Shown here: positions 3,910-63,565 of the stretch, piece by piece | How the letters are laid out: each line of letters starts with the position of its first letter | Position numbering within the stretch: position 1 is the stretch's first letter | Assembly (NCBI GenBank): GCA_009193035.1 | Contig: SWDT01000060.1 | Location: forward strand, 62,001 to 126,000 | Source of the DNA: Halicephalobus mephisto | Lineage: Eukaryota > Nematoda > Chromadorea > Rhabditida > Panagrolaimidae | Reading direction: 5' to 3' | DNA length: 64,000 nt | The notes under the pieces: generated by a model | Seen by the model: only the letters and a program-made list of their open reading frames with translations | Databases searched by the model: none | What the model was told of the DNA's origin: nothing | Made by a program: the position numbers and the translations under genes

Positions 3910-3984
3910 GTCTCTCGGCAGGCATCGAACCCACATCGTCTTGCTATCCGGGCAAGTGCTTTTCTCTTAAGCTACGAGAGCGAC
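3910..3984 (-). pseudogene. tRNA-like sequence, probably a tRNA pseudogene or SINE head
   Basis: The minus strand gives 75 nt that nearly fold as a tRNA. The acceptor arms GTCGCTC and GAGAGAC pair at 6 of 7 positions. A perfect anticodon stem CTTGC/GCAAG encloses a 7-nt loop, and the T-arm reads GTGGG-TTCGATG-CCTGC. The GGTTCGATGCC string resembles the Pol III B box, and TAGCTTAAGAG resembles an A box. The loop has C instead of the invariant U33 and lacks a purine at 37, and the acceptor stem has a mismatch. A functional tRNA is therefore unlikely. If the loop is read literally the anticodon would be GGA (Ser), but the arm sizes do not fit a Ser tRNA. Confidence 0.4.
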
Positions 3985-9034: not shown

Positions 9035-9325
9035 TTTCAGAAGATGTATAAGAAGATTTAGAAGATATTTGAAAAGATGCAGAAGGTATATAAGGAGGTT
9101 CAGAAGATGTACAAGAAGATTCAGAAGATATACAAGAAGATTCAGAAGATGTACAAGAAGATTCAGAAGGTATTTAAAAAGATTCAGAAGGTATACAAGA
9201 AGATTCAAAATGTATACAAGAAGATTCAGAAGGTATACAAGAAGATTCAGAAGGTATTTAAAAAGCTTCAGAAGATGTACAAGAAGATTCATAAAATATT
9301 TAAAAAGATTCAGAAGGTTAAAAGT
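9035..9325. repeat. 21-bp minisatellite
   Basis: About 14 copies of a 21-bp unit (aagattcagaagatgtacaa plus g). The unit length is a multiple of three and has few stops, so long ORFs appear in several frames on both strands (KKIQKVY-type and YLLNLLV-type peptides). This is a satellite artefact and not a gene. Confidence 0.9.
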
Positions 9326-9639
9326 AAACAATTAACTAATAAGAAAATTTTATTTGATTATTTTAAAAAAGTGACTCGTTAAAGAAATAAATACATAATT
9401 ACTGACCAGAACGGATTAGGTTAGATGCCAAACCTCTGATCTTTAAAATAAAGAATTATGAAATGACTGAAAATTATTGGAAAAACATGAAATTTAATTT
9501 TCCTTAATTTTGCTGACAGTAAATTCACAATTTGCCTGAAAGCTACCACTTAATCCACTTGTTTTGTAAAATAATTTCTTAAACATTTGGAATTTCATTT
9601 TTAAATGTTTTAAAAATACAAAAATTACTTTTATAAAAA

Positions 9640-46093: not shown

Positions 46094-49000
46094 ATGTGTT
46101 CCAGATTTTGTGAACGATTAGCTTTCTCGATTGCAGACGGGTTCTATCGGGTCATTTACAGAATCGGTTCCTGTGTTGATGGCATCAAGAGTCCCAGAAG
46201 TCTGGCCCCCTGGAGAAGACACAAAACAATCGTCGTCTGTGTCATCGGATTAGGTCAATCAGGGAAAACTACCATCGTCAAAGCCGTCCAAGGAGGTTGG
46301 TGAATTTTCAATTAAAATCTAAAATCTAAAATTTAAAGTTTTTTAAATTTACTTTCAAAATACACTTATTTAGAAAGTTTTGAAATTTTTTAGAATCTCA
46401 TAAAACATGTTTATTTTTTGAATGTTCAAAACTCCGAAATTTTCAATTTTTATTGTTTAAAAATTAAGGATTTTTTACAGTAATTTTAGTACTTAAAATT
46501 AAGAATTTTCTACACTAGTTTTATCATTTAAAAATGAAAAATTTTTTACATTAATTTTAGTACTTAAAATTAAGAATTTTTTACAATAATTTTATCATTT
46601 AAAAATGAAAAATTTTTTACAATAATTTTAGTACTTAAAATTAAGAATTTTTTACAGTAATTTTAGTACTTAAAATTAAGAATTTTCTACACTAGTTTTA
46701 TCATTTAAAAATAAAAAATTTTTTACATTAATTTTAGTACTTAAAATTAAGAATTTTTATTCCAAAGGCCAATATCCATAAACTTCTTCCATCATCTTGA
46801 CGAGTGCTTTTTTGTCTGTTTCGTTCAATTTTTGTTTTATTTCGAATATTTTTGCATTGCCTCTTCTGGAGCAGATTTGTTTTTTTCGGATTTCTGACAG
46901 CGTTTCGTGAATCTTGTTCCAGACTTCTTGGATTTTTTTGGATTGTTTTGGAAGCGAAATTTCGATTTTTTTTTCCGTTTCTTTGGATTCAGAAATCAGA
47001 TTTTTGTAAAATAATTTTGATTTACTCTGAAAATCGAAATTATTTAAAATTAAAATTATATATTTTAAAAATTGAAAATATTTATTTTTCGAAATTATTT
47101 TTGTATTTTTATAAATTAAAATTTTGCAAAAAATTACGAAATACAGTATGCCATTATTAAAGTTTTAATTCAATAAGATCTTTCATAATTTTCCTTCATT
47201 CGACAAAAATTTTTCGAATTTTTATAAACTTTTAAAATTTGAAATTTTCTGAAAATTAAAAAAAATAAATTTTATTAAATTTAAAATTTTCTGAAAATTT
47301 AAAAAATCTAAATTTTGTTAAATTTGAAATTTTATGAAAATTTAAAAAATCTAAATTTTGTTTAATTTAGAATTTTATGAAAATTTTGAGAATTAAGATG
47401 GTTTTGAAATTTTCGAAAACTTTTAATTTTTTTGGAATTTTTCGAAAACTTAGGATTTTTTTAAATTCACTAAAAACTTTTATAAATAATATTTGTAATT
47501 TCGGATTTTAAAAAGTTCTGAAAATTTGCAATAAATTAATTTTTGATTTTTATAATAATATAATTTTACAAAAAAATTAAAAATAATATACATCGTTATT
47601 TTCGAATTGATAAGTAAATTGATTTTAAAAATAATCATTAAAAATGAAAATTAAAATTAAAATTTACTCACATATCCGATTTTGCCGATCAGCCACTCGC
47701 CGAGTTTCTTCGGACTGAACTTGATGGAGTCCTTGATGGAAGCCAGTGCCCTTGTCGTGTCTGATCTCTGATGCCCCAGGGCTTCTGCCACATTGGCCAT
47801 CATCAAAAATTGATCGTATTTGTTATGAACAGGAAACAGTAAAGAAAAAACTCCAAAAATTCCAAAAATTAATAAAACAAGAAAAATTTTCATTTTCGAA
47901 AAATATACAATTGAAAAAAATTGTTTTTCTTTGGACAAAATTTATTTAATTTTTGACTAAAATTATATTTGTTTATTTTTCGTTAAAAATAGAAAATCCA
48001 TAAACTTGTTCGAAAGTGTATAGGAACATTTTGTAGTTTTCTGAAGTCAGATTCTTTAAGGAATTTTTTATTTTTTGATTTGCTTCAGATTCTGAAATTT
48101 TTCCAAGTTGAAGATCGAAGACAAATTTCCGGAAAATTTCCCATAATTCCCGGACTTCTGGTTTCTGAAGCCGAAGACCGTAATGAAGAGTTTTGTTCAG
48201 TTTTTTCGTGTCAGAAATCAGTTTAAAATTGAATATTTTGACATTTTCCTAAAATTTATATTTCAAAAATATTATTTCAGACAAAATTTTTTCAAATCCT
48301 ATATTTAAAAAAGAATTTTTAAAATCATATTGCCTGAGACAGAATAACTTTATTTTTTTTAAAAAATTATTTTTCGAATTATTTTATTAAGGAAGAAGTA
48401 TCTTTTAGATCATATTGCCTGAGAAAAAAGTACTTTTTAAGTCATATTGCCTGAGGCAGAATCACTAACTAAACTGTATTTTTTAAAAAAAATTACTTTT
48501 CGAATCATTTTATTAAGGAAGAAGTATTTTTTAGATCATATTGCCTGAGAAAAAAGTACTTTTTAAATCATATTGCCTGAGGCAGAATCACTAACTCAAC
48601 AATTTTATTTAAAAAATTACTTTTCGAATTGCTTCATTTTACGAAGTACCTTTTAGACCGTAGTGCCTGAGGTTAAAGTACTTTTTAGGCCATATTCTGT
48701 TAAGCAAGGTACTGATTTGGACTATGTTGCTTCAGGCAAAGTAATTTTATAAACTATATTACGTCAATCAAAGTAACTAAAATATTTTGTTTGAAATAAA
48801 GTAATCAAATCAAAATTCAACAGGCAAAAATTATTATTTAATTCATATTGCCTCAGGCAAAAAAGTTATTTCGATCATGTCTGGGGATAAAATAATTGTT
48901 TAGATTCTGTGATTTCAAACAAGATATGTATCTGGATAATAAAACTCAAATAAAATAATTTTTTAAAAATATTTCATAGAATTTTATTTTTGAAAAATTA

Positions 49001-52000
49001 ATTATTTCGATCATAATGCCTCAGGCAAAAGACACAGATCATGGCGTCTGAAGTGGAGCAATTATTTCCACTTTAGTGTCCCAACGATCGGAACGGCGAT
49101 AACACCACCGATCCAGAAAAAATAAACATTTTTAACAAAGATTTATCGACCGTTTTGAAGTTGTATTTTATAGCGCATTTAAAATCGATTTTAATTACCC
49201 AATTTTGAGATTTGAGTTCGGAATAAATCGAAGAAGAAACAAAATTTCGAACACCCATACATAGTACCTATCTGAACTATGATGTCTTGGGTGGAATACT
49301 CACAACATTGCCCCAGGCAAAGTGTATATTCGACCACAATGTCTCAAGGAAAACAGTTATCTCTGTCACAGTGCCTTAAATGAAACTACTCCATAGGCTA
49401 TAATGTCTCGGACAAAGTGCTTATTTAAAACATAAGACTTCAAACAAGGTACTTAATTAAATCATAGTATCTTAGGCCGGATAATTATATAGGCAACAAT
49501 ATTTCAGAAAGGTGCTTATTTGAAACATAACACATGCGGCAAAGTACTTATTAGGCCATAGTACCGCAGATAAAGTGTTTATCTAGATCATATTATCTCA
49601 AGTAAACTAATTCTTCAAACTACAGTATCCCAAGTAAAATACAGATTCGACTGTAATATCATAAACAAAGTACTTCTTTACGCTATACTATTTCCAATGA
49701 AATAACTCCCCAAACTATAATATCTTAAGAAAAATATTTATTAAGACCATAATATCATAAGAAAAGTATTTATCTAGATCATACTACTTCAAGTGAAATA
49801 GCTTTTCAAACTACAATATCCCAATGAAAATACTTATTCCATCATAATATCATAAGAAAATATCTATCTAGATAATACCACTTCCAATGAAATAACTCTT
49901 CAAACTACAATATTTTAAGTAAAGTATCTATTAAGATCATAACACTGCAAATAAAATATATATTAAGATCATACTACTTCAAGTGAAATAGCTTTTCAAA
50001 ATACAATAACCCAATGAAAGTACTTATTCAATCATAATATCATAGGGAAAATATCTATCTAGATAATACCACTTCAAGTGAAATAATTCTCCAAACTATA
50101 ATATCTTAAGCAAAGTATTTTTTTAAATCCTAATATCTCAAGTAAATTAACTTTCCAAACTATAATATCTCAAAAAAGCACTTTTCTAGACATTAATGCC
50201 GCAGACAAAGTACTTTTTTAAACCATATTATCTCAAATATTTCTTCAAAATATATTGTCCTGGACAATGTACTTACAATTCCTTTTAACTTGTCCAGAAT
50301 CCAATCAGAAGAATTTTCTCTTTTTTCTTCTTTTACTTTTTTCAGAATCTTGATGACCTTCAAAGTGTCATTTCTGTCGTATCCAATGGCTTCGGCGAAA
50401 TTACCGTAAAATACAAACGGGTCGTATTTTGTCGGATCCAACAAATATTCCACAATTTCTTCGCAAAAAATTCCAAAGAAAATTAAAAAAACCAAAACGA
50501 ATAAAATTTTTTTCATTTTTTGTTTATTTTCAGTTTTTTATTGATTTTGAAGATTGTAAACAAAAAATCTTCAGTGAAGCATACGGTAGAGTTGATTTTC
50601 GGTGAAATTGAAACCATAAAGATGGTTGAAAATTTTTGTTATTTCGTTTTTTTCATGAGGAAGAAGACGATCAAAATAAGTCCTGATTTGGTTGTGGCCC
50701 TTGCCTGAGGCTAGGAATTTTGCTTGCTTCCGGAACTCTAGCCAAGCTTCGCGGATTCTGGAGGTCTGGGAAGAAAGAACGGTATCTGTCTGGTGCCTGA
50801 TCCTGATGGTGTCAGAGGAGGCTTTGGAAAGGAATTTTCGGAAGTCATTCTAAAAATAATAAATTTAAAATTTCATCATTTTTAGTTTTTTTAAATTGTA
50901 TAAAATTAAAATAATTTTTCTCCGAAATTTTACAAAATTATAACTTTTTAAACTTAAAATCAAAATATTATAGATATTTGAAATTTTCTGAAAATTTCGA
51001 ACATTTTTAATTTTTTTAAATTTAATTTTAGAAGTTTTTATTGAATTTTGGAAAATTTTAAATATTTTTATGAAATTTTAAAAATTTTAATAATATAATT
51101 TTGTTGAAAAAAAAAATTAAAAATCAATATTTTTACAAAAAAAATTTTCCACGTATTTTTCGAAATTTTCTTATTTTTTAGAAAATTTTAAACATTTTAT
51201 GAAATTCTGGAAATTTTTACAGAAATTTAATAACATTGTCAAAAAATTTAAAATTAATGTTTTTACAAATTTTTTGAAATTTTTTAGTTTTTTTGGATGA
51301 TTCTATTTTTGAAAAAATTTTAAAATCTAAGAATTTTCTTAAAATTTATATTTTTATTCTTGATAGACAAAACACCTACAGTATCTCCGATTTTCTTATT
51401 CAGCCAATTGTAGAGTTCTTTAGATGTCTTCGTTCTCATGTCTTTGGTCATTTTGATGATCTCCTCGGAATCAGCCAGAGGGATATTGAGGGATTCAGCG
51501 AGGTTTCGGGTGATGACGATAGGGTCATAAGATGAAGGTTTACTTGTAGAACTAACTTGAATAAAGACAAAAAAGACGAAATTCAACAACACGATCTTCA
51601 TGTTGGCGAAATAAGAAAACTCGTGCAGATTGAGGTTTTTTGATTTTTATGATCTGGGCCTGGGTCAGAGATAAGTTTATTTATCTCCTTTATCCGTGCA
51701 CTTGTGTTTGACCTTAGAGAAAAAGCGATCTTCAAACATTACGAAACTTTCATGAACATTGATGATACACACAAAAAAGGCAAATTAAAACGGTTCTGAT
51801 ATATGAGGTAGATTATATTTAATATGTGGATGCATTCAGTACAATATACCAATATCAAGTTAATAATCGATATATTGGATATAATGTATCTAATACATTG
51901 GAATTACTTTACTTTATCGATAGATTATATACAATACACCGACATTAACTTAATATATCGATATATTGAATATGATGTATCTAATGCATCAGAACCGTTT

Positions 52001-55000
52001 TAATTTAGCTATACATTATACAGTAGAACTTGGATATAAGGTAACTTCTAAGAACTGGCCAAAGCGTATGTTATAACAAAGGATATGTTATAGAGAGAGC
52101 ATCGTATATCCAAGTTCTATTGTATTACAATTTCAAAATAAACTTGTTCTATTTCCATTTTTATGATAGTATTACAGTCGAACTTGGATATAAGTTAACT
52201 TCTAAGAACTGGCCAAATCGTATATTATAAGAAAGGATATATCATAGAGGGGATAAATTTGAAGGCAGACTAACCAAACACACTCACTCACACCGTATGC
52301 TATAAAAAGAGATATATCATAGCAGGGATATCTTATATCCAAGTTCTACTGTATACCATATACTCATTTTTTGTGTACAGATCAATGAAAAATTCTAGAA
52401 AACGCTTTTAATATAATATTTTTTTTAATCATTCAGTTCAAATTTAATGGATTTTAATAATTTTTATCCAAAATACTAAATTTAAAATTACCCAATATAT
52501 TTATTATTTTCAATTTTATACAATTCTTCTGTAAATTTTTTAAATTTCTAAAGAATACATAAACATGAACTGTATCTTGTCATGAGAAACAAATGTTATA
52601 AATTTAGTGATTTTATAATTTAAATTTTCAAACTTCTGCGGTGGGAATTAATTTTACTTTTTTAAAATTGTTTTTGCGCTAAATTGTAGTTACTTTTAGA
52701 AACTAACGAGCAACTCTTGATCATTAAGAATTTCGTAATAGAAGTCAATTTTGCTCTGGTTTTGGATGATTTTTTTTCATTAGTTTTGGATGACTTTTTT
52801 TGACTAGTTTTGGATTATTTTTTTTCACTGGTTTTGGATAATTTTTTCTCATTAGTTTTGGATGACTTTTTTTCACTAGATTCCACTTCGGTACGAACGA
52901 ACTTGTTGTGATTTCCAGGAAATTCTTGACTGAGTTGTACTTTGTTCTTAAATTGTTTTTTGCGCTTAATTCCACTCTCGTTGGCAAACAAGTGAGCTGC
53001 TTATGATTATTGAACTTTTGTAAAGAAATTGACCTTGTTCTTAAGTTACTTCTTGTACCTAATTTTACTCGTATCTAAGTGTAGGGGAACTCGATATGAT
53101 CATTAGGGACTTTTGTGGCGAAAGTTGATTTTATTTTTTTCTTATATAAAATTTACATTTAGTTTTGCTTTTATTTGTAAACAGGTTAGTTATGGTCATT
53201 AAAGATTTTCTTGATGAAGATAGACTTCGCTTTTTGAAGCATAATGACAAATATCTGTTTATTGACTAATTATCCAACAAAGTTCCAAACTTCCCAGGTG
53301 TTTTTTGAGATTACTCAGTGGAGGGAGTATAGTCATAGCCATAAACTTGTTTGAAATCATTTTTAAACGCAGTTTGATCTTCTAAGGACAGTTGGTTGTA
53401 AATCTGATTTAGTTGTTGTTCGTACATCGCTGGAGTCGTCTTCTCACCCATGAGACTGGCTGTGACTGAAGTCAATTGTTGCCAGGCCGTCAGAACTCCA
53501 TCTGACTGCCGATTCATCAACTCCCCTGCTTCCGTAGCTGCTTGACTGGAGAGATCCAGAAACCGTGTTCTGAACGATTCTACTTCTTCTTGATTCTGAA
53601 AAAATCAATCAATTACTTGATTCTTAGAGGAAACCTACAGTATCTTCTTTAGACAGTGCGTTATACCATTCGGCGATTTTTCCAACTCTTTGAGCTTCGC
53701 TACGACTAGAATTGGATTGGATTTCTTGGATGATCTGAGATCCATCTTGGTAGACACTTGTTAGCTCCTCAAGATGACCTAGAAGAACAAAGGGATCCAT
53801 GTATTGGGCTGCTTGGGCATCAGCTTCTTCTGGAGACATTGTTGTTGTCGATTGTTCATTATTGAAGTTTCTGTTAGAATATCCTTGGTTTCCAGTAGGA
53901 TATCTTTGATTAGGATAATATCGACCAGAATTCTGATTGGTGTAACCTTGATATTGTTGATATGGATAGTAGGCTGATTGTCGTTTCAGGAGAAATCCCT
54001 CCGAAAGACAGATTACAGTAAGTAAAACAAGAATCTTCATCGTCAAATTTCACTACTTTCTGGACGATTTTTCTCTCGTTTTATACCCTATCCGATACAG
54101 TGATTCTTGTAGAACAAGTTCAACCTCCTTACGATCAACGTTACTTTGCAGAATCTGTAAAAACAAGTCTGTAATCATTTTGCAGGTTGTTAAACATTAG
54201 TTTTTCAAAGATTTTCGAGGAAACGGTCCTTGACATGTCAAGAGGCGATTGTTTACTGGAAATAAGATTTCGACAGGGTCTGAAGAGGCGATCAGAATTG
54301 TCTCAAAGATCAAGAACGATATAGGCGTGGGATGATATCATTTTTGTCTATGGAGGAGTTAAAGAATGTAACATTGTTGAGATGTTTGCATTTGATTCAA
54401 TTCAATAACCATTATTGCTAACAATATCGAAGACAAAAATTACTGTCAATGAAGAACTCGAGGAATGTAGGATTGTTGAGTTTTGTACTTATTTCTCTTT
54501 CGAAATTATGATTATAATCAAAGAACATTAAAATTGAATTTATCGTCGATGAAGAATTTAAAAACTGTAGAAATACTAGGAGTTTTATACTTGCTTTAGA
54601 AATCACGATGTAACAAAATTAATAAAAACAGATATTGATAGAGGAACTTAGGAACGTGGATTTACCGAAAACTTGATTCTCGAACTAGATCAAATATGAT
54701 AATTATAATCAAAGAACATTCAAATTTAATTTTATCGTCGATGAGATTATTAAAAAATCAATTTTTCATCAACTTTTATGTACATTTAATATATAATATG
54801 TAACCCTTATTTAATTAGGAAGTTTCTCTGAGAATATTAACAAAGGAATATCCATAGATATCCTGGAAAGTTTTGTCAAAGATTTGCTGTTGTTCGGGTT
54901 TCAATTGAAAGAAAAGTTGTCTGATTCCGTGAACGTATTCTTGAGGATCCATTTGTTGCATCATTACTTTTTCCGTTCCAACGAGGAATTGACCGTAAAC

Positions 55001-58000
55001 AGCCGAGACTTTTACGAATGATTGGCTGTTTTTGAATTGTTGCCAAGATGCAAGAGAATTGACGGCATTTGTGGAGGAAATTTTTGCTTTTTTTGAAGCT
55101 TCAATCACGGTGTTCACCCAAGGGGCTACCGGTATCTAAAAAAAATTAAAATTATCGAGTGTTTATTTTTATAAAATTTAATATGAATTTTTCGAATTCA
55201 ACGAACCTTGTAATAAGCAAAACTTCTCGAAAACCATTCAGTCAAATTAATTACTTGGTCGATGGATATCCTAGAAGGCATGTATGACAATACAGTATTC
55301 AGGTTAATAGGTTTATTATTTCCATCGACCATTTCTGGAATCGCTCCGAGGATGACATAAGGATCCAGATAAATGTCCGTCGAGAGAGCCTCCAAGTCAG
55401 ATCCACTTATCTGATTCTGAATTTGTGGAGTAGGAGCTCCAGAAATCAAATAAATTAATTTCATAATTATAGAAATAAAAATAATTGAAGATTTCATATT
55501 TTTGAATTTTGATTTAATCGAAAAGTTTGGTCAATTTATAGTTTTTCGGGACGTGAGGAAAATTTTTGACATTCTTCGGATTATACAACCCTGCCCACTA
55601 GATCGGAAAGGAGAATTCGGTAAACAGTACCTTCGAGAATTGATTGAATGTTGTCGGATTAAAAAAGAAAAACTATGGAAGGTTTTCGTGTAGGGGTTTG
55701 TTTGAGTACATCATAAGATTCAATTCAAATTTTATTTCGTAAAAAATAGAAAATTTAAAAACATCATTTTTTTATAAAATTTATCTTTTAAATATTATAT
55801 CATAAATGACAAATTTGTTTTTTTCCAGAATTTTTTAAAGTTGATTTTGTAATGAAAAATGGAATTCGGATAAAAATTGTTTTTAGTTTACTTTCATTGT
55901 TTGAAAAGTTTCTCATTGTTGAAGATGAATCAGAGTTGTTTATACTTGTAGGAGGTATTTTGGATTTAGATACAGTAAAAGATAAAAATTCTTTGTTTTC
56001 GAAGTTGAAACAGAAATTTTCATGAAAGTTAAGATTTTTCGGACTAATGCAATTTTTGTTCAAATAGTCTTTGAGTGTTGGGACAGAAAACTAAACTAGA
56101 AAGAACCTGAAACAATAATCAAAATATCAGGGAGCGTGGGTACTGTATGTTATTACTAAGACTCTCGGTTGCATTGTGTGGGAGTCATAATAATTGCATC
56201 TGGGTCATATTATTTTAGTAGAGTATTAACATACTTCTGTTTTCTATCTTGACAGCTGGTGTTTAATAAACATAATCCGATCTATTATTAGATTACTGTT
56301 GGAATAGGAGCTATACTACAAAGGACCTGAAACGAAGGCCTGAATATCGGGGAAAAGTAGAATAATATATGTTGAGTGAGACTCTAGGTTGTCTTGTATG
56401 AACATACATAATAATTGTATTTGTCTTATTCTTCTAGTAGAGATTATTATTATACTTTTTTTCTATCTTAACAAAACTAAAACACTGATGTGATTATGAC
56501 TCATGACTGTCGTTTCAGAAGATTTTCAAAATGTTCATTCCACAATCGGGTTCTCCAGAGCAGAGATGGAAGTGAAAGGGTACAAGATTACTGCTTATGA
56601 TCTGGGTGGAGAAGAGAAAATAAGGGATATCTGGACCAACTACTACGCTGAGGTGGGTTTTCTGAAACTTTTCTCAAGATACATCTTAAATAGCGACTGA
56701 TATTGACAATAAACCATCCTCGAAATCACTCTCCAAGTTTGCATAGTAAAGGAAAATGATTGAAAGGATAGATTTATTGTTAAAATCAGTCACTATCACA
56801 TTTGACTTTGATAAATGACTTTCATGAAGGTGATATTGAATAGCATTGATTTTGGGTGATTATTTACTGTTTTCATTCGTTATTCTTGCGAAATAATATT
56901 GAAAAATTATTGAATTCTCTGAAAACAACTATTTCAGATTTACGGTTTAATCTACGTCGTGGACAGTGCAGGAGATAAATCCACGATGGACATGAACAGA
57001 CAAGTTCTTGAAACCTTGGGGAAGATCCAAGATTTGAAAGGAAAACCGTTCCTGATTTTCCTTAACAAAAAGGATCTCCCAGAAGCCTTGGATGAACTTC
57101 AATTCAGTGATGATTTCAAGCTCCACTCTCTCGCAAAGGAAATCGGGGCCGGGATCCGGGTGGAATCCGTCTGTGGGGTACACGGGACTGGAAAGGATAT
57201 TGATCCAGCAGTCATCGACGGGTTCGAATGGCTCATCGATCAGATCCTCATCAAGTACACAGAAATCGAGAAAGGAGTTGAAGTGGCTGTCAGGAAGCTG
57301 AAAGAGAGACAAGCACAAGAAAGATTGGAAAGACAACATAGATTAGCCGCTCTAACGTGAGTTTTTACATTTAAAAATCACTTTTTTCTTACTTCAAACC
57401 TGAGCAGTTAAATCAAATAAGCAAAAGTAAAAGTTATAAAATAATATAAACAAAAAATTCTATATCTTGTTATAAATCATTTTTTTGAATTTTCGATGAA
57501 ATAGTTATTTAATTTTTTTGGAAATTATTCCTTTTCAGTTTTCGGAAATGTGTGTCCATATATGTAAATTAATTATTTCATCATTTCAGAGCTGCCAGAA
57601 ATGCAGAGTCTCCAGAGAGACCAAGCACCTCGGAAATGCCGTCGGCAAATGAATTTCATGTTGTGGAAGATGATTCCAACAACGACACTGCTGGAAAAAT
57701 CTCCAATGGGAAGTTGGTTAACGTCATCGGAGATCTTCAAAACAATGAATATTATTACGATCCTCCTTCGAGGGTCCAAAGGATACTAGAACACGCGAAG
57801 AAAATGAAGCAAAATGTAAGTACAGTAGAACTTGGATATAAGGTATCTATTTAGGACCGACCAAAGCGTATGTTATAAGAAAAGAGGTGTTATAACGGGG
57901 ATGTCTCATATCCAAGTTCTATTGTATTTTATAATTGTAGAATCCATGTATGAAAACCGTTTTAGAAAGTAGCGCCAGCTCCTAATCCGGAAGCTGATTC

Positions 58001-59306
58001 TGCTTCAGGGAAAGTAACAATGAATGAGTTGCAGAAAAAAGAAGAAGGATACGACAATAAGGCCTTCGAAACAGAGGAACGACTTCAGAGGCCAAAAACC
58101 GTGTCAGAGAATTTGACCGACTCGAAGACGCTGGAGATAGAGCGACTTCAGCTAGAAAGCAGGGCCGGTTTGCCGGAGAAAACGGTGATCACGGACCGAG
58201 AAGCTGCGAGTCACAATTGGCATGAAGTAAAATCAATTTAAAATTATTAAAAATAATTACAACCAAAACTGCCAAAACATGATACAAATAAAGTTAAACA
58301 AAGATTCAAGAATCTTTGAGGAATATGGAATCATTCATTGTCTTATATCAGATCGTCTATAAACTTTTTTTGAATATCTCAAACAGATGAAATATCAATC
58401 ATGATTTTTTGAGAAATTTATGAAAATGTAAATAACAGGTAAAATAACTCGTTTTCGATGCGATATTTTGATATTAGCTATGGTGTTTTTAACTTCAAAT
58501 GATGTTGTAACATATAATCATTAACTTTTACGACGGACAGAAACTTTTGTACTCCAAACGTAGTAAGACTTCTTTTTATTCCTGATTTGTACAATACAAA
58601 AAATTTGGTTCATTCACCTTCGTGGTGGAGCAGATTCTTCAGCCTCTACTGATTTGTATTGGTTTCTTTATTGGTCCCTCAAATTTGGGTAATTAAACAA
58701 ACACAAAAACGATAAATATAAACAATCACGATAAAACAAAATATAAAGCACAATAAATTACTATTATTCAAAAGCATTGCATAATTACAGTAAAACATAT
58801 TAATCATGAAGCGTAGAGGTTCGTTTGCTTCTTTTGCGTTGATGAATCATCTGCTGTTCTTACTACTAACGTAATTTTCAATTATATCGACATACTCCAT
58901 ATAATCTTGGTTTAGAAATTTCCAGATTCATCTAAGAAAAGTATACTCGTCAACAAATGATTACAAAGTCGTGTGAGATTAAAGTATAATCATTACACGA
59001 AATCAAAACTGTCTCATAGGTTACTGTGGTTTCTAAAAACTTCCGGAAATCCACATCGAGATAATTTTACAACAATGTATATCCTGGTGTTTAATAGCAT
59101 TATTAGAAGATTTATCTATTTTCTAACATACATCCAAGTGGGTTCGAAAAAAAACCGCTAAACAGGTTACAATCGACTATCAGAACGACTTTGATAATCA
59201 ACTTCCTCTCTTGGCCAGTCATGTTGTGGCTTTTGAGAACACGACCAAAGGGCCATTTTTAAGAATAGAGTACTGTGTCAATATTGTACAATACACAAGT
59301 GTTTGA
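46094..59306 (+). CDS. arl-13: ARL-13 / ARL13B ciliary GTPase
   Basis: Exons: 46,094-46,295; 56,519-56,652; 56,938-57,356; 57,590-57,815; 57,966-58,226; probably 59,166-59,306 (about 460 aa). If the GTAAAA donor at 58,227 is unused, a stop at 58,241 ends the protein at 418 aa. The last exon is favoured because NDFDNQLPLLA resembles an ARL13B C-terminal motif I remember. N-terminal Cys2 and Cys6 suit palmitoylation. G1 is GLGQSGKT (52-59), the switch I Thr lies in HSTIGFS, and G3 is DLGGEEK, lacking the catalytic Gln as in ARL13B. G4 is NKKD and G5 is SVCG, followed by a charged coiled coil (VEVAVRKLKERQAQERLER). ARL13B is a membrane-bound ciliary GTPase needed for cilium structure and signalling. 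Intron 1 is about 10.2 kb and holds five antisense genes. Confidence 0.9.
46440..46750. repeat. Tandem repeat, about 60-bp units, in arl-13 intron 1
   Basis: Units of 'ttttagtacttaaaattaag' and 'ttttatcatttaaaaatgaa' run right up to the stop codon of the antisense gene at 46,757. Confidence 0.85.
46757..47893 (-). CDS. Small secreted helical protein, nested paralogue A
   Basis: Two exons on the minus strand (47,893-47,672 and 47,026-46,757) encode 163 aa. The start is the Met of MKIFLVLLIFGIFGVFS, an obvious signal peptide. An in-frame upstream Met exists but would bury the signal. Exon 1 ends ...LGEWLIGKIGY followed by a GTGAGT donor in phase 0. Exon 2 follows GATTTTCAG and begins SKSKLFYKNL. 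It is Lys/Glu-rich and helical, contains two Trp and one Cys, and ends EEVYGYWPLE before TAA. The YGY terminus and the Trp before the phase-0 intron are shared with the other paralogues. Function is unknown. The gene lies wholly inside arl-13 intron 1 in antisense orientation. Confidence 0.75.
47973..50516 (-). CDS. Small secreted helical protein, nested paralogue B
   Basis: Exon 1 (50,516-50,277) encodes the signal peptide MKKILFVLVFLIFFGIF, then YDPFVFYGNFAEAIGYDR and a helix ending SDWILDKLKGI before GTAAGT (phase 0). Exon 2 (48,248-47,973) follows AATTTTAG, begins ENVKIFNFKL and ends FEQVYGFSIFNEK. The total is 171 aa. The intron is about 2 kb, exceptional for this family, and is filled by a short-unit tandem repeat with GCCTGAGGC-type cores. 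A distance of 80 bp separates its stop from the start of paralogue A, so the two genes run head to tail. Exon 2 was assigned by frame, motif and order. Confidence 0.72.
48290..50260. repeat. Long degenerate tandem repeat (about 30-45 bp units) inside paralogue B intron
   Basis: Dozens of modules such as 'tcatattgcctgaggcagaa', 'aagtactttttaaatcatat' and 'ctacaatatcccaatgaaaa' occupy nearly the entire intron. The left part is better conserved. A copy of the 170-bp dispersed repeat interrupts the array. Confidence 0.85.
49075..49253 (+). repeat. Dispersed about 170-bp repeat, copy 2 of 3
   Basis: It carries 'gataacaccaccgatccaga', 'ttttatagcgcatttaaaat', 'ttacccaattttgagatttg' and 'gttcggaataaatcgaag', matching copies at 37.7 and 60.6 kb. 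It is inserted within the tandem array of paralogue B's intron. Confidence 0.7.
50571..51601 (-). CDS. Small secreted helical protein, nested paralogue C
   Basis: Exon 1 (51,601-51,380) encodes the signal peptide MKIVLLNFVFFVFIQVSS, then SYDPIVITRNLAESLN and a helix ending LYNWLNKKIGDT. It is followed by GTAGGT, a donor overlapping a TACTGTAG string that is also used by paralogue D. Exon 2 (50,849-50,571) follows TTATTTTTAG, begins NDFRKFLSKASSDT and ends FNHLYGFNFTENQLYRMLH. The total is 166 aa. Its stop lies 55 bp from the start of paralogue B. Exon 2 is Arg-rich compared with the Lys-rich exons of A and B. Function is unknown. Confidence 0.75.
51770..52353. mobile_element. Family C repeat followed by two pogo-like MITEs
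   Basis: 51,770-52,017 is family C ('gatgtatctaatgcatcaga'). Two MITEs follow at 52,019-52,124 and 52,173-52,353 with TA-CAGTAGAACTTGGATAT and ...TTCTACTG-TA ends. The pair plus its spacer is the reverse complement of the first two elements of the 16.1-kb array, in the same order and with nearly the same lengths (106 and 177-181 bp). The composite therefore moved as one unit. Confidence 0.8.
52360..53300. repeat. AT-rich DNA and minisatellite
   Basis: 52,630-53,230 contains diverged 110-130 bp units. Inside it, 52,750-52,880 is a 24-30 bp minisatellite ('ctagttttggatgacttttt') whose minus strand reads as a Lys/Pro/His repeat. No signal peptide or splice sites support a gene. Confidence 0.6.
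53311..54046 (-). CDS. Small secreted protein with Tyr/Gln/Asn-rich insert, nested paralogue D
   Basis: Two exons (54,046-53,639 and 53,595-53,311) with a 43-bp intron (GTAGGT...TTTTTTCAG, phase 0) encode 230 aa. The signal peptide is MKILVLLTVICLSEGF. Residues about 22-70 are a low-complexity Tyr/Gln/Asn/Pro region (YYPYQQYQGYTNQ...), absent from the sister genes. The family module resumes with YMDPFVLLGHLEELTS and AEWYNALSKEDT. Exon 2 ends FKNDFKQVYGYDYTPSTE. ATGs at 54,046 and 54,040 are both possible starts. The Tyr/Gln-rich part may drive self-association or cross-linking, but that is inference from composition only. Confidence 0.85.
54100..54790. repeat. Degenerate about 120-bp repeat between paralogues D and E
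   Basis: Diverged units carry 'gtcgatgaagaactcgagga', 'tgtaggattgttgag' and 'ttataatcaaagaacatt'. No exon-like sequence is seen. The D promoter would lie at the right or higher-coordinate side of D, i.e. at 54,050-54,120. Confidence 0.55.
54815..55497 (-). CDS. Small secreted helical protein, nested paralogue E
   Basis: Two exons (55,497-55,207 and 55,135-54,815) with a 71-bp intron (GTTCGT...TTTTTTAG, phase 0) encode 203 aa. The signal peptide is within MKSSIIFISIIMKLIYLISGA. The family signature is YLDPYVILGAIPEMVDG. The exon 1 end is LTEWFSRSFAYYK. Exon 2 opens IPVAPWVNTVIEASKKAK, contains a Gln-rich helix (LFFQLKPEQQQIFDKTF) and ends QDIYGYSFVNILRETS. The GTTCGT donor is non-consensus, but frame and family position support it. 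This is the first antisense paralogue upstream of arl-13 exon 2. Confidence 0.83.
55500..56518. other. Right part of arl-13 intron 1, with two copies of a 160-bp dispersed repeat
   Basis: 56,095-56,252 and 56,310-56,470 are related copies ('tgaaacaataatcaaaatat' / 'tgaaacgaaggcctgaatat'; 'ataataattgcatctggg' / 'ataataattgtatttgtc'). A third, partial copy ends the window (63,925-64,000). ORFs at 55,502-55,693 (+) and 55,800-56,063 (-) lack any family or domain signal. Confidence 0.5.
57821..57926. mobile_element. pogo-like MITE in arl-13 intron 4
   Basis: This 106-bp element runs from TA-CAGTAGAACTTGGATAT to ATATCCAAGTTCTATTG-TA. It begins within six bases of the exon 4 donor (AAT|GTAAG-TACAGTAG), so the element end forms part of the splice-donor environment. 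Confidence 0.85.
58245..59160. other. Probable last intron of arl-13, or 3' UTR and intergenic DNA
   Basis: No exon signal is seen here. If arl-13 stops at 58,241 this would be its 3' flank. Short hairpin-free AT-rich sequence with scattered unique patches; nothing recognised. Confidence 0.4.
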
Positions 59307-59541
59307 TTTCCGTCCATTAGATCTTTGATGTACAGATGGCAATGTTGTTTAAATAAGATGAAGAAAATGTGAGGTGATTATTAAGGCAAAACTAGAAAAA
59401 AGTAGTTTCCTAGGTACAAATAAAAGACTTTAAGTTGAGATAAAAGTCATGTTTGTTTTTCCTTGTTTACAATACTCTATTAAAATCCTGAGAATTGTCC
59501 CTTATAAAAGATCAGCTTTGACAACTTTAAAAAACCGAAAA

Positions 59542-60052
59542 ATGAAATTCACTTTGACAGTTTTTTTCTTTTACATTTATTTCATATTTAAATCGAAGAG
59601 CTTTCCTGTAAACAAAAACGATATTACTGAATACGATGATGAAGACTTTGATGTGGATACGATTGTTTTCATTTCCCATCTTCCTCTCTTAAGTCAGAAA
59701 TTGAATCAACAAGCCGGGACTTCATTGTTCCAAACGATTCAGAATTCACAGAACCTCGATGACGAAGAGTTCGAAGTTGTGTTGTTCTACTGGTATCACC
59801 AACAAGATCCTACTGTTCAGGTAAAAATTGTTCAAGTATCTATGTAAAATTTCCCGACTTTAGGCAAACTTCATGGACTGGTTGTCTGACGTGATTGAGG
59901 CCAGTCAAGTTGCCAAACAGCGAAGCATGCAGATATTAAATCAGAGTAGTATTTCTCCCGAAGTCAAATCCGCTTGGGAACTTTTTCAAGAACTTCTTAA
60001 TGATTCAGATGTGAATAGATTGGATGAATTCATCAGTTCGCTTTCTCAGTGA
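59542..60052 (+). CDS. Small secreted protein, paralogue F (plus strand, short C-terminus)
   Basis: Exons 59,542-59,820 and 59,864-60,052 with a 43-bp intron (GTAAAA...GACTTTAG, phase 0) encode 155 aa. The start is the Met of MKFTLTVFFFYIYFIFKSKS, a signal peptide. An upstream in-frame Met at 59,449 would precede it by 31 residues. The acidic NDITEYDDEDFDVDTIVF segment replaces the DP(F/Y)V motif. Exon 1 ends VVLFYWYHQQDPTVQ with the family Trp. Exon 2 is ANFMDWLSDVIEASQVAK... and ends ISSLSQ, without the YGY terminus. A GTGAGT overlapping the stop (60,049) could splice to 60,086 but gives only an unconvincing tail. Downstream AATAAA-type signals at about 60,207 and 60,231 fit polyadenylation. 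Confidence 0.8.
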
Positions 60053-60547
60053 GTAGAGACACAATTGGACCAAATTTTCCTCCAGATCTACAGTATTACC
60101 CCAAGTCAGTTTTTCTCGACTTTCGTCATGACTGCGGAGATGCAGACTCGTTCATGAGCTGGAACAATCTTGGATAAAAGTTAACGTTTTCAAATACTGC
60201 AATTGAATAAAGTTCGGGAATTTATTTAAAATAAAATGTTCAACAAATGTAATCTAGTGACAAGCAATGAACAACAAAAAGTAGATTCTGAAATAAACAA
60301 CTTTGATTTTTTGCTGATTGTTTTTTATTCCTGAAAAAGTTTTTTCAGAAATGATTGCAGGAATTACAATTCCATTCCAAGAACTGACATTGGATCGATG
60401 TCGATTTTGCACCATACTTATATCTAATAAGTACCTTTATTATTGGATTGCCCGTTGAACAAAGCGAAAAGCAGATTCGAACAATTGCAAATTGGGAATT
60501 TGATTTGTTATTTCTGAATTTTAAATATATTCGTTCAATATCTAATT

Positions 60548-60721
60548 GATATGGTAATAACGTCACCAATCCAGAGAAAGTGTTAACAATATTGAAAAAT
60601 TCTATCGATCGTGTTATTTTTGTATTTTATAATGAGTTTATTGTGATTTGGCTTAATTACCCAAGTCTGAGAGAGGAAGTAAAGTTCGAAATAAATCGAG
60701 GAATCAATTCCTTCCGAACAA
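60548..60721 (+). repeat. Dispersed about 170-bp repeat, copy 3 of 3
   Basis: It carries 'gtaataacgtcaccaatcca', 'tttattgtgatttggcttaa', 'ttacccaagtctgagagagg' and 'gttcgaaataaatcgaggaa'. The 125-codon ORF 60,580-60,957 begins inside it. Confidence 0.7.
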
Positions 60722-61350
60722 TGTCAAACAATCTTGATGACAATGCGTCGCAAAGTTGGATCCGTTATTTACAATCGATAGCAGTCTTTTTGTATAACAG
60801 ACAAGTTTTGATTTGTCAATCGAGAAAAGAATTGTTTTATCAAATTGGAACAAATTATTTGATGCATGGAATTTTTGTAAATGTTTTCATAAATCATCGA
60901 AATTTTTTTAATAAGATTAAATCAGTAACCAGATACGGTACTTATGAAGTACTTTGATTACTGTAAAAATGAGAAATATTTGTTAAATTATTTTGATTTT
61001 TCTATGTACTGTATTTGGGACATTAAAAACTTATTAAAATTTAATAGTTATCATTATTGACTGCAGTTGAGGATTCAAATTTGTTTTCAATTACGATACA
61101 GTATGATATTTAATAAAAATTCTAAAAATAAAATTTAAATTTTTAATTTTTACGGATTAAAATTCAATGAAAATAAAATTCAAAAATGGGCTTAATTTTG
61201 TCAGATTATGAAGTAATTAAAAAATTGTTTTTGATATTGAATATTTTTATTAAAATATAAAATTTAATTCAAATTTGAAAAAAAAGAAATTTAAACACAT
61301 TTGTACTTATACAAAATTTTACAATTTTTTGTTATCTACAGTAAACGACA
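60722..61350. other. Intergenic; doubtful ORF then AT-rich DNA
   Basis: 60,722-60,957 (+) stays open for 78 codons (starts MSNNLDDNASQSWIRYL) and ends in TGA. It has some helical character like family exon 2 but no YGY end, splice acceptor or signal peptide. It may be a decayed paralogue. 60,960-61,350 is AT-rich. Confidence 0.35.
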
Positions 61351-61358
61351 AAGAACAT

Positions 61359-63565
61359 TCATCCTTTTCTTCCTCTGGAGCTGCTTACTCTGGAAGGCGA
61401 ACTTGGTCTTGTGCTAGAAGGCCGGGATACGGTACTGGATGATGATGTTCTTGAAGCTGATCCGGAAGTCTGTGTTCCTGTAGAAGTCGTTTTCGGTTTA
61501 GTTACAGTATTCGATGAAGGAGTATTTGTTCTTGAAGTCGAGGGAGAACTTGCTGAATCTCCATTGATTCCCGTTTGAGTGGAAGCATCAGAAAAAGTTC
61601 TTGTTTGACTCGGGATTATTGAAGGATTTTGAACTCTTTGTGCTGATGATTGTTGATTAGAATTTGGTCTTTTTAGAGAAGTGGGCAAATAGTTATTAAT
61701 TCTTGTTCTGGAAGTTCCTCCAAGAAAAAGTGGCAATATTCCAGTATATCCCGGTCGAAGTCTAGATCCTCCAGTTAATCTTCCAGATGACGGAAATGTG
61801 TTGATGATGACTCCTAGATCGTATTCATAAATCTTTGAAAAAAGATCAATAAAGTCTTTTTTCTTAATGTTGGATAACTGTAAGTAAATTTTAGACAAAT
61901 CCGATTCTACAGTATTGGCGTTAATTCCACCGGACAGAGCTTTTTCTCCCAGATTCTGAGTTTGGATGAAGGCCCTTTGAACGTCGGAAGAATAACTTTC
62001 AAAAATTTCATCTTTAATGCGTGCTGCTCTTTGAGAAACCTGGATCATGGATTCAGAAGCGAGTGATTTATCGAACTGAAAAAAAACTAAATTTTAAAAA
62101 TTATCTAAAATGAAAAATTAGGAAATAAATCTAAGCACAGAAATTGAGCTCTTCAGTTGCCTTCTTGGACCTACAATCACCACTCGGTTGATGTAAACAG
62201 ATCCATTGTAGGCACAAAGATCGGACTTAAACCGGAACGGCCTAGACAGGATGCCCAAAGCTCCGTCCAGTCAGCCGACGCCTGGGAAGTGAGACTAGAG
62301 TGTTAGAGAGTCAGTTTCTGAGAAGATCCAGCTTTAGACGGGTCCGAGTTTGACTTCGGTCAAACGAGGATCCTTCCTCTTTTGTTTTATGCTTATGTTA
62401 AGATAAACAAGCTTAATTGCTAATAGTAGGAACCAACAGTTTTCTACCTAATCAAGGAGCTCCCAAGATGTCACTCCATCGACATCCCTCGTACTACTAG
62501 TCTCACTTTTACTACACCATCAATACCGTATGACAGTGTCGAGGATACTGTAGCCACTAGATCTGCGGACAACGAAGAGACACCAATAGGACAGAAAACA
62601 GTTATCGTGTATTATTTTGTGATTTTATAATTTTCTTTGTTTAACATGTCGTTAAAAGTTCAATTGCCCAAGTCTGAGGTTGGAACAAAAGTAACCATCT
62701 ACAGTAGGTAAAAGTACATAAATCTACAAGTAACCCTACACACAAAAAGTGTAACTTTCAATTTAATAAAAAAATATAAATCTTCGCTATTTTGTTACAA
62801 TTTTCGTCACAAAAGTCAAATATTTATAAAATATGTGACTATTGTGTCACATTTCGCAATTGTTACAAAACCAAAAGTTAAACTTTTTTGTAAAGTTTTT
62901 TAAAGTTTCAGAATCCTCAATTAGTGATTTCCAATCAGTAAGGACTCAGTTTTGTTCCTCTTCCTCTACTCCAGTTCTATATAAAAAAGAAATAAAATAT
63001 AACAACAAAATCGAATACAGTATGGAACTGCAATCTGTATCTAAATAGAGAAGAGATTTTCCAGATCTACAGTACTCTTATGAAGAAGAATAAAAAACAC
63101 TAATAAAGCAAACGAGTCATGACTATAATTGCCGATTTTCGAATTTAAAATTTCCAAACTTTGAATTCAATAAGTCAATTTAAATTGACACTTTTCTATT
63201 TTCGAACTCGAGTTACTTCTGAATTGATTCAAAGTTTAACTTTTTACTTTTTACTTTTACTTTTGTTCCTATATCGCACAAAATCAAAAATACCCATACA
63301 ACTACAAATTATAATTGTTTGGTCCTATGATTCAAAGTTTAATTTTGAATTAATTTGAAATCGACAGTTTTGGTCGTGATGATACAGTACTCTAGGGAAA
63401 ACTTACTTTGTAAGAATTAACCCATTGGTCAATCGCATTTTTATCAGAAGGCCCCAGAAATCCTCTCACGACGAAGTAATCAACTTCTGCAGCACGCGAA
63501 ACAGAGATTACGGATAAAATTAACAAACTTTTACAAAAAAAATAAAAATAATTAACAAAACTCAT
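61359..63565 (-). CDS. Secreted protein with Ser/Thr-rich tail, paralogue G
   Basis: Exon 1 (63,565-63,407) encodes MSFVNYFYFFCKSLLILSVISVSRA, then EVDYFVVRGFLGPSDK and IDQWVNSYK before GTAAGT (phase 0). Exon 2 (62,075-61,359) follows TTTTTTTTCAG and starts FDKSLASESMIQVS. The total is 291 aa. The family helix region ends FIDLFSKIYEYDLG (YEY instead of YGY). A sister-less extension of about 135 residues follows, rich in Ser, Thr, Pro and Arg (TNTPSSNTVTKPKTTSTGT...), ending SSSRGRKG. Such a tail is a likely O-glycosylation region if secreted, by inference. The 1.33-kb intron holds a GC-rich unique block and a family B MITE. The join rests on phase, order and family architecture. Confidence 0.75.
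62140..62640. other. GC-richer unique block in paralogue G intron
   Basis: About 450 bp of normal-complexity sequence unlike the surrounding DNA, with a small palindrome TTTGACTTCGGTCAAA at about 62,350. It has no stable reading frame. 'ggttcctactat' is shared, in inverted orientation, with the 44.6-kb island. A mobile-element remnant or structured RNA is possible. Confidence 0.4.
62738..62892. mobile_element. Family B MITE in paralogue G intron
   Basis: This 155-bp element begins ACACAAAAAGTGTAACTTT and ends AAAAGTTAAACTTTTTTGTA. The interior 'ttttcgtcacaaaagtcaaa' matches the 4.3-kb copy. Confidence 0.75.

Follow-up and report, generated by a model that had tools for sequence, protein, structure and literature searches.

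Within a stretch of 64,000 nucleotides (nt) from the nematode Halicephalobus mephisto (in the following referred to as the window), positions 46757..63565 contain a cluster of seven genes, A to G, which encode highly diverged, presumably secreted proteins. The locus raises the question whether these genes form a family at all and whether this family is an undescribed one, as stated in the original prediction from the letters of the window. Our analysis places the cluster as a divergent branch or a sister group of the nematode SXP/RAL-2 family (PF02520, DUF148). We estimate the probability of SXP/RAL-2 ancestry taken together with a secreted helical nature of the proteins at about 0.8.

Gene models and shared protein features

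The seven genes were modelled as follows, with protein lengths in amino acids (aa) and intron lengths in base pairs (bp):

46757..47893, minus strand: gene A, 163 aa; exon 1 47893-47672, exon 2 47026-46757, intron 645 bp
47973..50516, minus strand: gene B, 171 aa; exon 1 50516-50277, exon 2 48248-47973, intron 2028 bp
50571..51601, minus strand: gene C, 166 aa; exon 1 51601-51380, exon 2 50849-50571, intron 530 bp
53311..54040, minus strand: gene D, 228 aa; exon 1 54040-53639, exon 2 53595-53311, intron 43 bp
54815..55497, minus strand: gene E, 203 aa; exon 1 55497-55207, exon 2 55135-54815, intron 71 bp
59542..60052, plus strand: gene F, 155 aa as read; exon 1 59542-59820, exon 2 59864-60052, intron 43 bp
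61359..63565, minus strand: gene G, 291 aa; exon 1 63565-63407, exon 2 62075-61359, intron 1331 bp

Splicing at the window's own GT..AG sites resulted in one open protein with a phase-0 intron for each of the seven genes, and both ends of the cluster matched those given before, in agreement with the seven two-exon genes and the phase-0 intron originally proposed. Predicted proteins of related nematodes cross the junctions of D, E and G as modelled, that of D being crossed by P0001 and P0002 and those of G and E by P0004. P0003, a relative of D, differs in that it reads through past exon 1 instead of joining. For A, B, C and F the putative joins are based on the splice consensus and the continuity of the profile.

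All seven proteins carry within their first 32 residues a 12-residue stretch with a mean Kyte-Doolittle hydropathy of 2.27-3.30, which exceeds any stretch from residue 31 onward and probably represents the signal peptide that had been claimed. Likewise, a Trp precedes the intron in each of them, located 5-9 residues before the last residue of exon 1. The (Y)DP(F/Y)V-type segment was retained in part: its Asp is present in all seven proteins, and three of them (B, D, E) carry the strict motif. The end [VIL]YG[YF], predicted for most members, was found in five (A-E); G ends with IYEY and F stops before a YG(Y/F)-type end. Gene D possesses a Y/N/Q-rich stretch following the N-terminal hydrophobic part, and gene G a Ser/Thr-rich tail, its first-helix part being largely missing. 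Taken together, the shared gene structure and the mostly helical core described for the cluster were supported.

Common descent of the seven genes

The pairwise identity among the paralogues amounts to 17-29%, as little as had been noted. Clear pair z scores were obtained for A-B (23.6) and D-E (16.2), and several other pairs were no better than shuffles (A-F 1.1, C-F -0.2, B-G 0.5). In a genome search gene B matched exon 1 of A with an E-value of 6.9e-6.

Common descent was assessed by profiles. Each protein was scored, after its N-terminal part had been cut off (core boundaries set by hand), against a model from which its own clade had been dropped, together with 1000 shuffles per protein. 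In none of the seven cases did any of the 1000 shuffles reach the real score; the real scores ranged from 26.9 to 74.9 bits (A 44.8, B 59.2, C 52.3, D 74.9, E 43.2, F 31.4, G 26.9) and the best shuffle overall scored 13.6 bits. The left-out models were also run against the 748 open reading frames (ORFs) of at least 35 aa in the window, minus the 12 exons of the respective other six genes, and the ORF of exon 2 ranked first for six of the seven genes. The ORF containing exon 2 of A ranked 109; it carries 46 codons of intron read-through and matches with an E-value of 3.5e-9 when trimmed to the exon. Exon 1 alone was weaker (ranks 5, 2, 2, 2, 12 and 24 for A-F, no match for G).

The strongest unrelated ORF in these scans (9062-9379) is a translated 21-bp tandem repeat. 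A chance likeness among A-G is excluded by the shuffle controls and the left-out profiles. Judged by these sequence comparisons, the seven genes clearly descend from a common ancestor and form the single paralogous family that had been proposed.

Relationship to the SXP/RAL-2 family

PF02520 has clear members in the genome of H. mephisto, among them the spliced loci L002 (E-value 6.6e-16) and L004/L008 (1.7e-14), and the best PDB match of L002 is the SXP/RAL-2 protein Ani s 5 (2mar, E-value 2.1e-27). A profile-profile comparison of 16 rows of the cluster family with 25 SXP/RAL-2 rows gave a probability of 97.1% over 125 co-linear columns, with an E-value of 5.6e-11 for this single comparison. 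As controls, none of 200 column-shuffled SXP alignments exceeded 2.08%, and reversal of the alignment gave 0.33%. With 11 family rows, a previous comparison had yielded 95.2%, and no more than 0.85% in 100 shuffles. The match persisted when the SXP side was reduced to four genes from this genome (96.7%, against no more than 2.0% in 100 shuffles) or to the L002 lineage (95.4%), and the F-type rows alone reached 97.5% against SXP/RAL-2.

Weak matches to PF02520 itself were obtained for P0002, the best relative (E-value 0.017, residues 123-225, 15.6 bits), for P0001 (0.44) and for Q, a family gene on another contig (0.52; its start codon is uncertain and a later Met was used in the Pfam search). 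P0002, the orthologue of D from Panagr., is named SXP/RAL-2 Ani s 5-like protein in its UniRef source and has no Pfam domain in the database.

The second line of evidence is provided by the gene structure. Twelve modelled family genes (A-G and the five genes H, I, K, P and Q from outside the window) were compared with four canonical SXP genes of this genome in a merged alignment. The phase-0 intron of L002 and L004/L008 falls into the same alignment column as that of ten of the 12 family genes, the phase being assumed for H, I, K, P and Q, which were modelled with phase-0 acceptors only. The introns of D and G are offset from the common column by 2 and 6 columns, respectively, and the distance from the Trp to the junction is 9 in both D and L002. 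In the alignment column that holds W43 of Ani s 5, all 12 family genes encode Trp, as do L002 and L003 among the canonical genes; L001 has Phe and L004 Leu at this place. On the basis of this alignment, the Trp-bearing helix followed by a phase-0 intron appears to be an ancient character of SXP genes.

Thirdly, the predicted structures were compared with the fold of Ani s 5. The helices of Ani s 5, H1 to H6, comprise residues 15-27, 33-47, 51-77, 82-96, 103-113 and 118-125 (PMC3945735). The model of the D orthologue contains helices at residues 120-128, 134-148, 155-180, 185-202, 208-221 and 224-238, and seems to resemble Ani s 5 in helix order, rough lengths and the long H3. In this model the intron junction would separate helix 2 from the long helix 3. 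The model of the E/G orthologue is of low confidence, with a mean predicted local distance difference test score (pLDDT) of 42.0, and displays a similar helix order where legible. As to the common fold expected for the cluster, the D orthologue yielded a fair model, and the E/G model adds the similar order of its legible helices at low confidence.

Based on these sequence comparisons the cluster is very probably homologous to the SXP/RAL-2 family. That the family is undescribed is thus not supported, as it joins a known one through the profile-profile match and through the intron column and phase present in two canonical genes.

The proteins would share with Ani s 5 and its relatives the occurrence in nematodes, a probable signal peptide, the predicted order and rough lengths of the helices, the Trp of helix 2 and the phase-0 intron just after the Trp segment, the latter as in two of the canonical genes. 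They differ from them by an Asp segment of the DP(F/Y)V type before helix 1, by the end YG(Y/F) in most members and by additional stretches that are rich in Y/N/Q (D, Q) or in Ser/Thr (G). L002 has a proline-rich start, whereas the cluster does not.

Evidence against SXP/RAL-2 ancestry

Several observations weigh against this assignment. None of the proteins A-G matched PF02520 in Pfam at an E-value of 1 or better (B also at 10), and none of the family sequences tested reached the curated cut-off of 29.3 bits. Since this cut-off was missed, we do not count the cluster as a plain member but treat it as a divergent branch or a sister group. Sub-branches on their own matched SXP/RAL-2 weakly (D+E 51.6%, A-C 24.4%, D 14.1%, G 1.5%, E 0.7%), E even scoring less than its reversed control (2.1%); E and G are therefore tied to SXP only via their relatives. 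In a tree of the 16 family rows and 8 of the 25 SXP rows, in which 9 of the 21 inner branches are unresolved, the two sets are split by a branch with support of 99/97. Because the rows fall apart in this way, a sister family to SXP seems as possible as a branch within it.

Furthermore, of the four SXP genes compared, L001 and L003 have no intron at the common place. The acidic loop residues, which have been proposed to bind Mg2+ in Ani s 5 (PMC3945735), are mostly replaced in A-G at the aligned positions. However, the canonical L002 also lacks most of them, so that they do not represent a family-wide mark. With the D-orthologue model as query, Foldseek reported no match at an E-value of 0.001, and its best 50 of 59 matches did not include 2mar; in VIA-align the nearest of the 388 chains aligned was Na-FAR-1. 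The absence of 2mar from the VIA-align result is uninformative because the 388 chains were taken from Foldseek's list.

A-G matched no Pfam family above its cut-off, the NCBIfam matches of P0001, P0002 and P0004 all stayed far short of the cut-off, a PDB sequence search with D returned only a nucleoporin (E-value 0.058), and tblastn of D against phages gave no match.

These points could be taken to indicate a lineage-specific secreted helical family that is unrelated to SXP/RAL-2 and resembles it merely by helix composition and a coincident intron. In favour of this view are the position of the family rows on their own side of the tree, the missing Pfam match of A-G and the weak or lacking match when D, E, A-C or G are used alone. 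However, the column shuffles, which keep the composition, reach at most 2.1%, the intron column and phase are common to two canonical SXP genes, the Trp column is common to L002 and Ani s 5, and the UniRef source of the D orthologue calls it SXP/RAL-2-like. We therefore regard an unrelated origin as very unlikely and retain the homology to SXP/RAL-2.

Possible relationship to FAR proteins and lipase chaperones

A possible wider relationship concerns the FAR lipid carriers (PF05823). Compared with SXP/RAL-2, the FAR profile gave 56.7% over 108 columns (200 shuffles, at most 1.81%; reversed 0.72%), this profile consisting of four sequences, three of which were joined from exons by eye. The match is a hint that these two secreted families of nematodes may have a common origin. 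The cluster differs from the FAR proteins (Na-FAR-1, 4xcp/4uet) in that its direct match to the FAR profile is just 3.9% over 22 columns, and A-G have no Pfam match to PF05823. The loci listed with an SXP-FAR profile match are L045 and L046 (contig C154) and L047 (contig C55). Among the titles listed in literature searches with both family names, none was on such a link. That SXP/RAL-2, the cluster and the FAR lipid carriers constitute one nematode-only superfamily, whose cluster members would carry lipids or small hydrophobic compounds, seems rather unlikely.

A further proposal is based on analogy with the bacterial lipase chaperones (PF03280), according to which the proteins would act as secreted foldases or chaperones. 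An HHPRED match of more than 95% between DUF148 and Lipase_chap has been reported in a desiccation study, in which four C. elegans DUF148 proteins belong to the 'high FCC' class (PMC3853187). In our data L002 matched PF03280 with an E-value of 3.5e-4, which is under the cut-off, and the database assigns PF03280 to three of 21 relatives of L002. On the other hand, PF03280 was not listed, within the limits used, for A-G, P0001-P0005, H, I, K, P or Q, and part of the bacterial domain is missing according to the same study (PMC3853187). A chaperone function by this analogy is considered highly improbable.

The four C. elegans proteins F11F1.4, F11F1.5, F11F1.8 and F13E9.14 combine a signal peptide, a low-complexity stretch rich in YGG/FGG or LGG and a helical domain (PMC3853187). 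The layout of gene D with its Y/N/Q-rich stretch is comparable, the comparison being one of layout. The C. elegans proteins carry a recognised DUF148 domain, whereas the cluster stays under the cut-off.

Orthologues and evolution of the family

Protein searches for orthologues were conducted with D, with E aligned to relatives of D, and with a canonical SXP gene. In Halicephalobus sp. NKZ332 orthologues were identified for D (P0001, 73% identical), E (64%) and G (57%); D and P0002 share 47% identity. The orthologues of G and E form the N-terminal and the C-terminal half, respectively, of P0004 from NKZ332, which was split at a point picked by eye and is probably a fusion of neighbouring genes made by gene prediction. 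Their joining in P0004 suggests that E and G are neighbours in NKZ332, too.

A canonical SXP pair of H. mephisto and NKZ332 is 80% identical, compared with 57-73% for D, E and G, which therefore change somewhat faster. In the tree the paralogue clades D, E and G are placed on long branches (0.81, 1.55 and 1.64, respectively), and D and its NKZ332 orthologue are each 0.15 away from their fork. Going by these distances, an old duplication with orthologues kept since then fits better than a recent scrambling.

The scrambled sequences had been interpreted as a sign of rapid evolution, as in effectors, seminal proteins or coat proteins. This interpretation is not supported, given that D, E and G are conserved at 57-73% in NKZ332. 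In its stronger form it proposes fast-evolving effectors or antigens engaged in an arms race, for which the low identity among the paralogues might speak, as might the description of SXP/RAL-2 proteins as secreted antigens in parasites (PMC3945735) and the inclusion of one SXP/RAL-2 protein in a list of root-knot nematode gland-cell proteins (PMC8727514). Since the orthologues of D, E and G are conserved and H. mephisto is described as a feeder on prokaryotes (PMC6872716), an arms race is, in contrast, an unlikely explanation.

Extent of the family and genomic setting

Using exon 2 of gene K as query, 12 matches were detected in the genome. Eight of them are located on the contig of the window beyond its right end, at 126968, 129634, 130728, 132481, 134437 (K itself), 135867, 136897 and 139233, and two of these (130728 and 135867) contain stops inside the match. 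The remaining four comprise F, two places on contig C162 and an insignificant one on C87. Both exons could be modelled for H, I and K on the contig of the window and for P and Q on C162. The window thus contains seven of at least 15 family places on its contig. The seven-gene cluster that had been claimed is present in the window, but it runs on past it and its member F is truncated.

Gene Q (L041, contig C162, about 552777-554072) displays long Y/N/Q-rich stretches flanking the helical core on both sides. A match of F on contig C191 (E-value 2.5e-6, four internal stops), where the family-profile scan found no match, and weak matches on C113, C79, C87 and C157 were not counted as family members.

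F ends at an in-frame stop about 30 residues short of its F-like paralogues P, I and K. Within window positions 59864-60139, which include exon 2 as read, the in-frame sequence past this stop resembles the last helix of P, I and K, and the stop is likewise reported where K matches F in the genome search. As read from its sequence, F is a shortened or decaying gene.

Genes A-E are nested in antisense orientation, on the minus strand, within a single intron of a plus-strand gene:

46296..56518, plus strand: intron of an Arf-family (ARL13-like) gene, 10,223 bp, boundaries read from the sequence

Pieces of the two exons following this intron match Arf (PF00025) with E-values of 5.3e-11 and 7e-12, and the exon piece preceding it gave no match on its own. 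We take the host gene to be ARL13-like. F and G are located past the last exon read of this gene.

The intron of G contains a dispersed repeat of about 300 bp (window about 62207-62507) with at least 41 more matches, each roughly 190-320 bp long and 82-97% identical, in addition to short fragments, the count being a lower bound as 40 of 307 candidates were scored. By its size and spread the repeat appears to be similar to a short interspersed element (SINE). The only Rfam match in the window at the gathering threshold is one tRNA (3910-3981). The left half of the window contains very many AT-rich tandem repeats, and 184 repeats were listed for the whole window.

Predicted function and implications

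The putative signal peptide presumably directs the proteins out of the cell. The conserved Trp of helix 2 may pack helix 1 onto helix 2, both of which would be encoded by exon 1, and exon 2 would contribute the long central helix and further hairpins, the end YG(Y/F) closing most members. The folded protein may act outside the cell, at the surface of the cuticle, among the secretions of glands or in the lumen of the gut, where a small helical protein could bind a ligand or coat a surface, and duplicates may later have diverged in the ligand bound or in the site of production.

Parasite SXP/RAL-2 proteins have been located in the hypodermis, cuticle, gland and gut lumen (PMC3945735). In the free-living panagrolaimid Panagrolaimus superbus, the transcript of highest abundance belonged to SXP/RAL-2, and the authors proposed a structural or protective role in the cuticle (PMC3296651). 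Overall, an extracellular barrier or ligand-binding role of the cluster proteins may be put forward as a tentative assumption, somewhat less probable than its opposite.

The cluster was not found in the main text of the H. mephisto genome paper, which contains neither 'SXP' nor 'DUF148' (PMC6872716). It appears to represent a divergent variant that extends a known nematode family and not a new kind of system. SXP/RAL-2 proteins represent vaccine, diagnostic and allergy antigens without a settled function (PMC3945735). If the weak link between SXP and FAR were true, it would suggest a testable biochemical activity for these antigens.

With respect to genome annotation, orphan secreted genes gain a place in a named superfamily. 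The tandem array in a probably free-living worm, linked to the canonical genes by a common intron and Trp, suggests that the SXP/RAL-2 family reaches well past the recognition of its Pfam model, and the same intron and Trp offer a route to members that have been missed in other nematodes.

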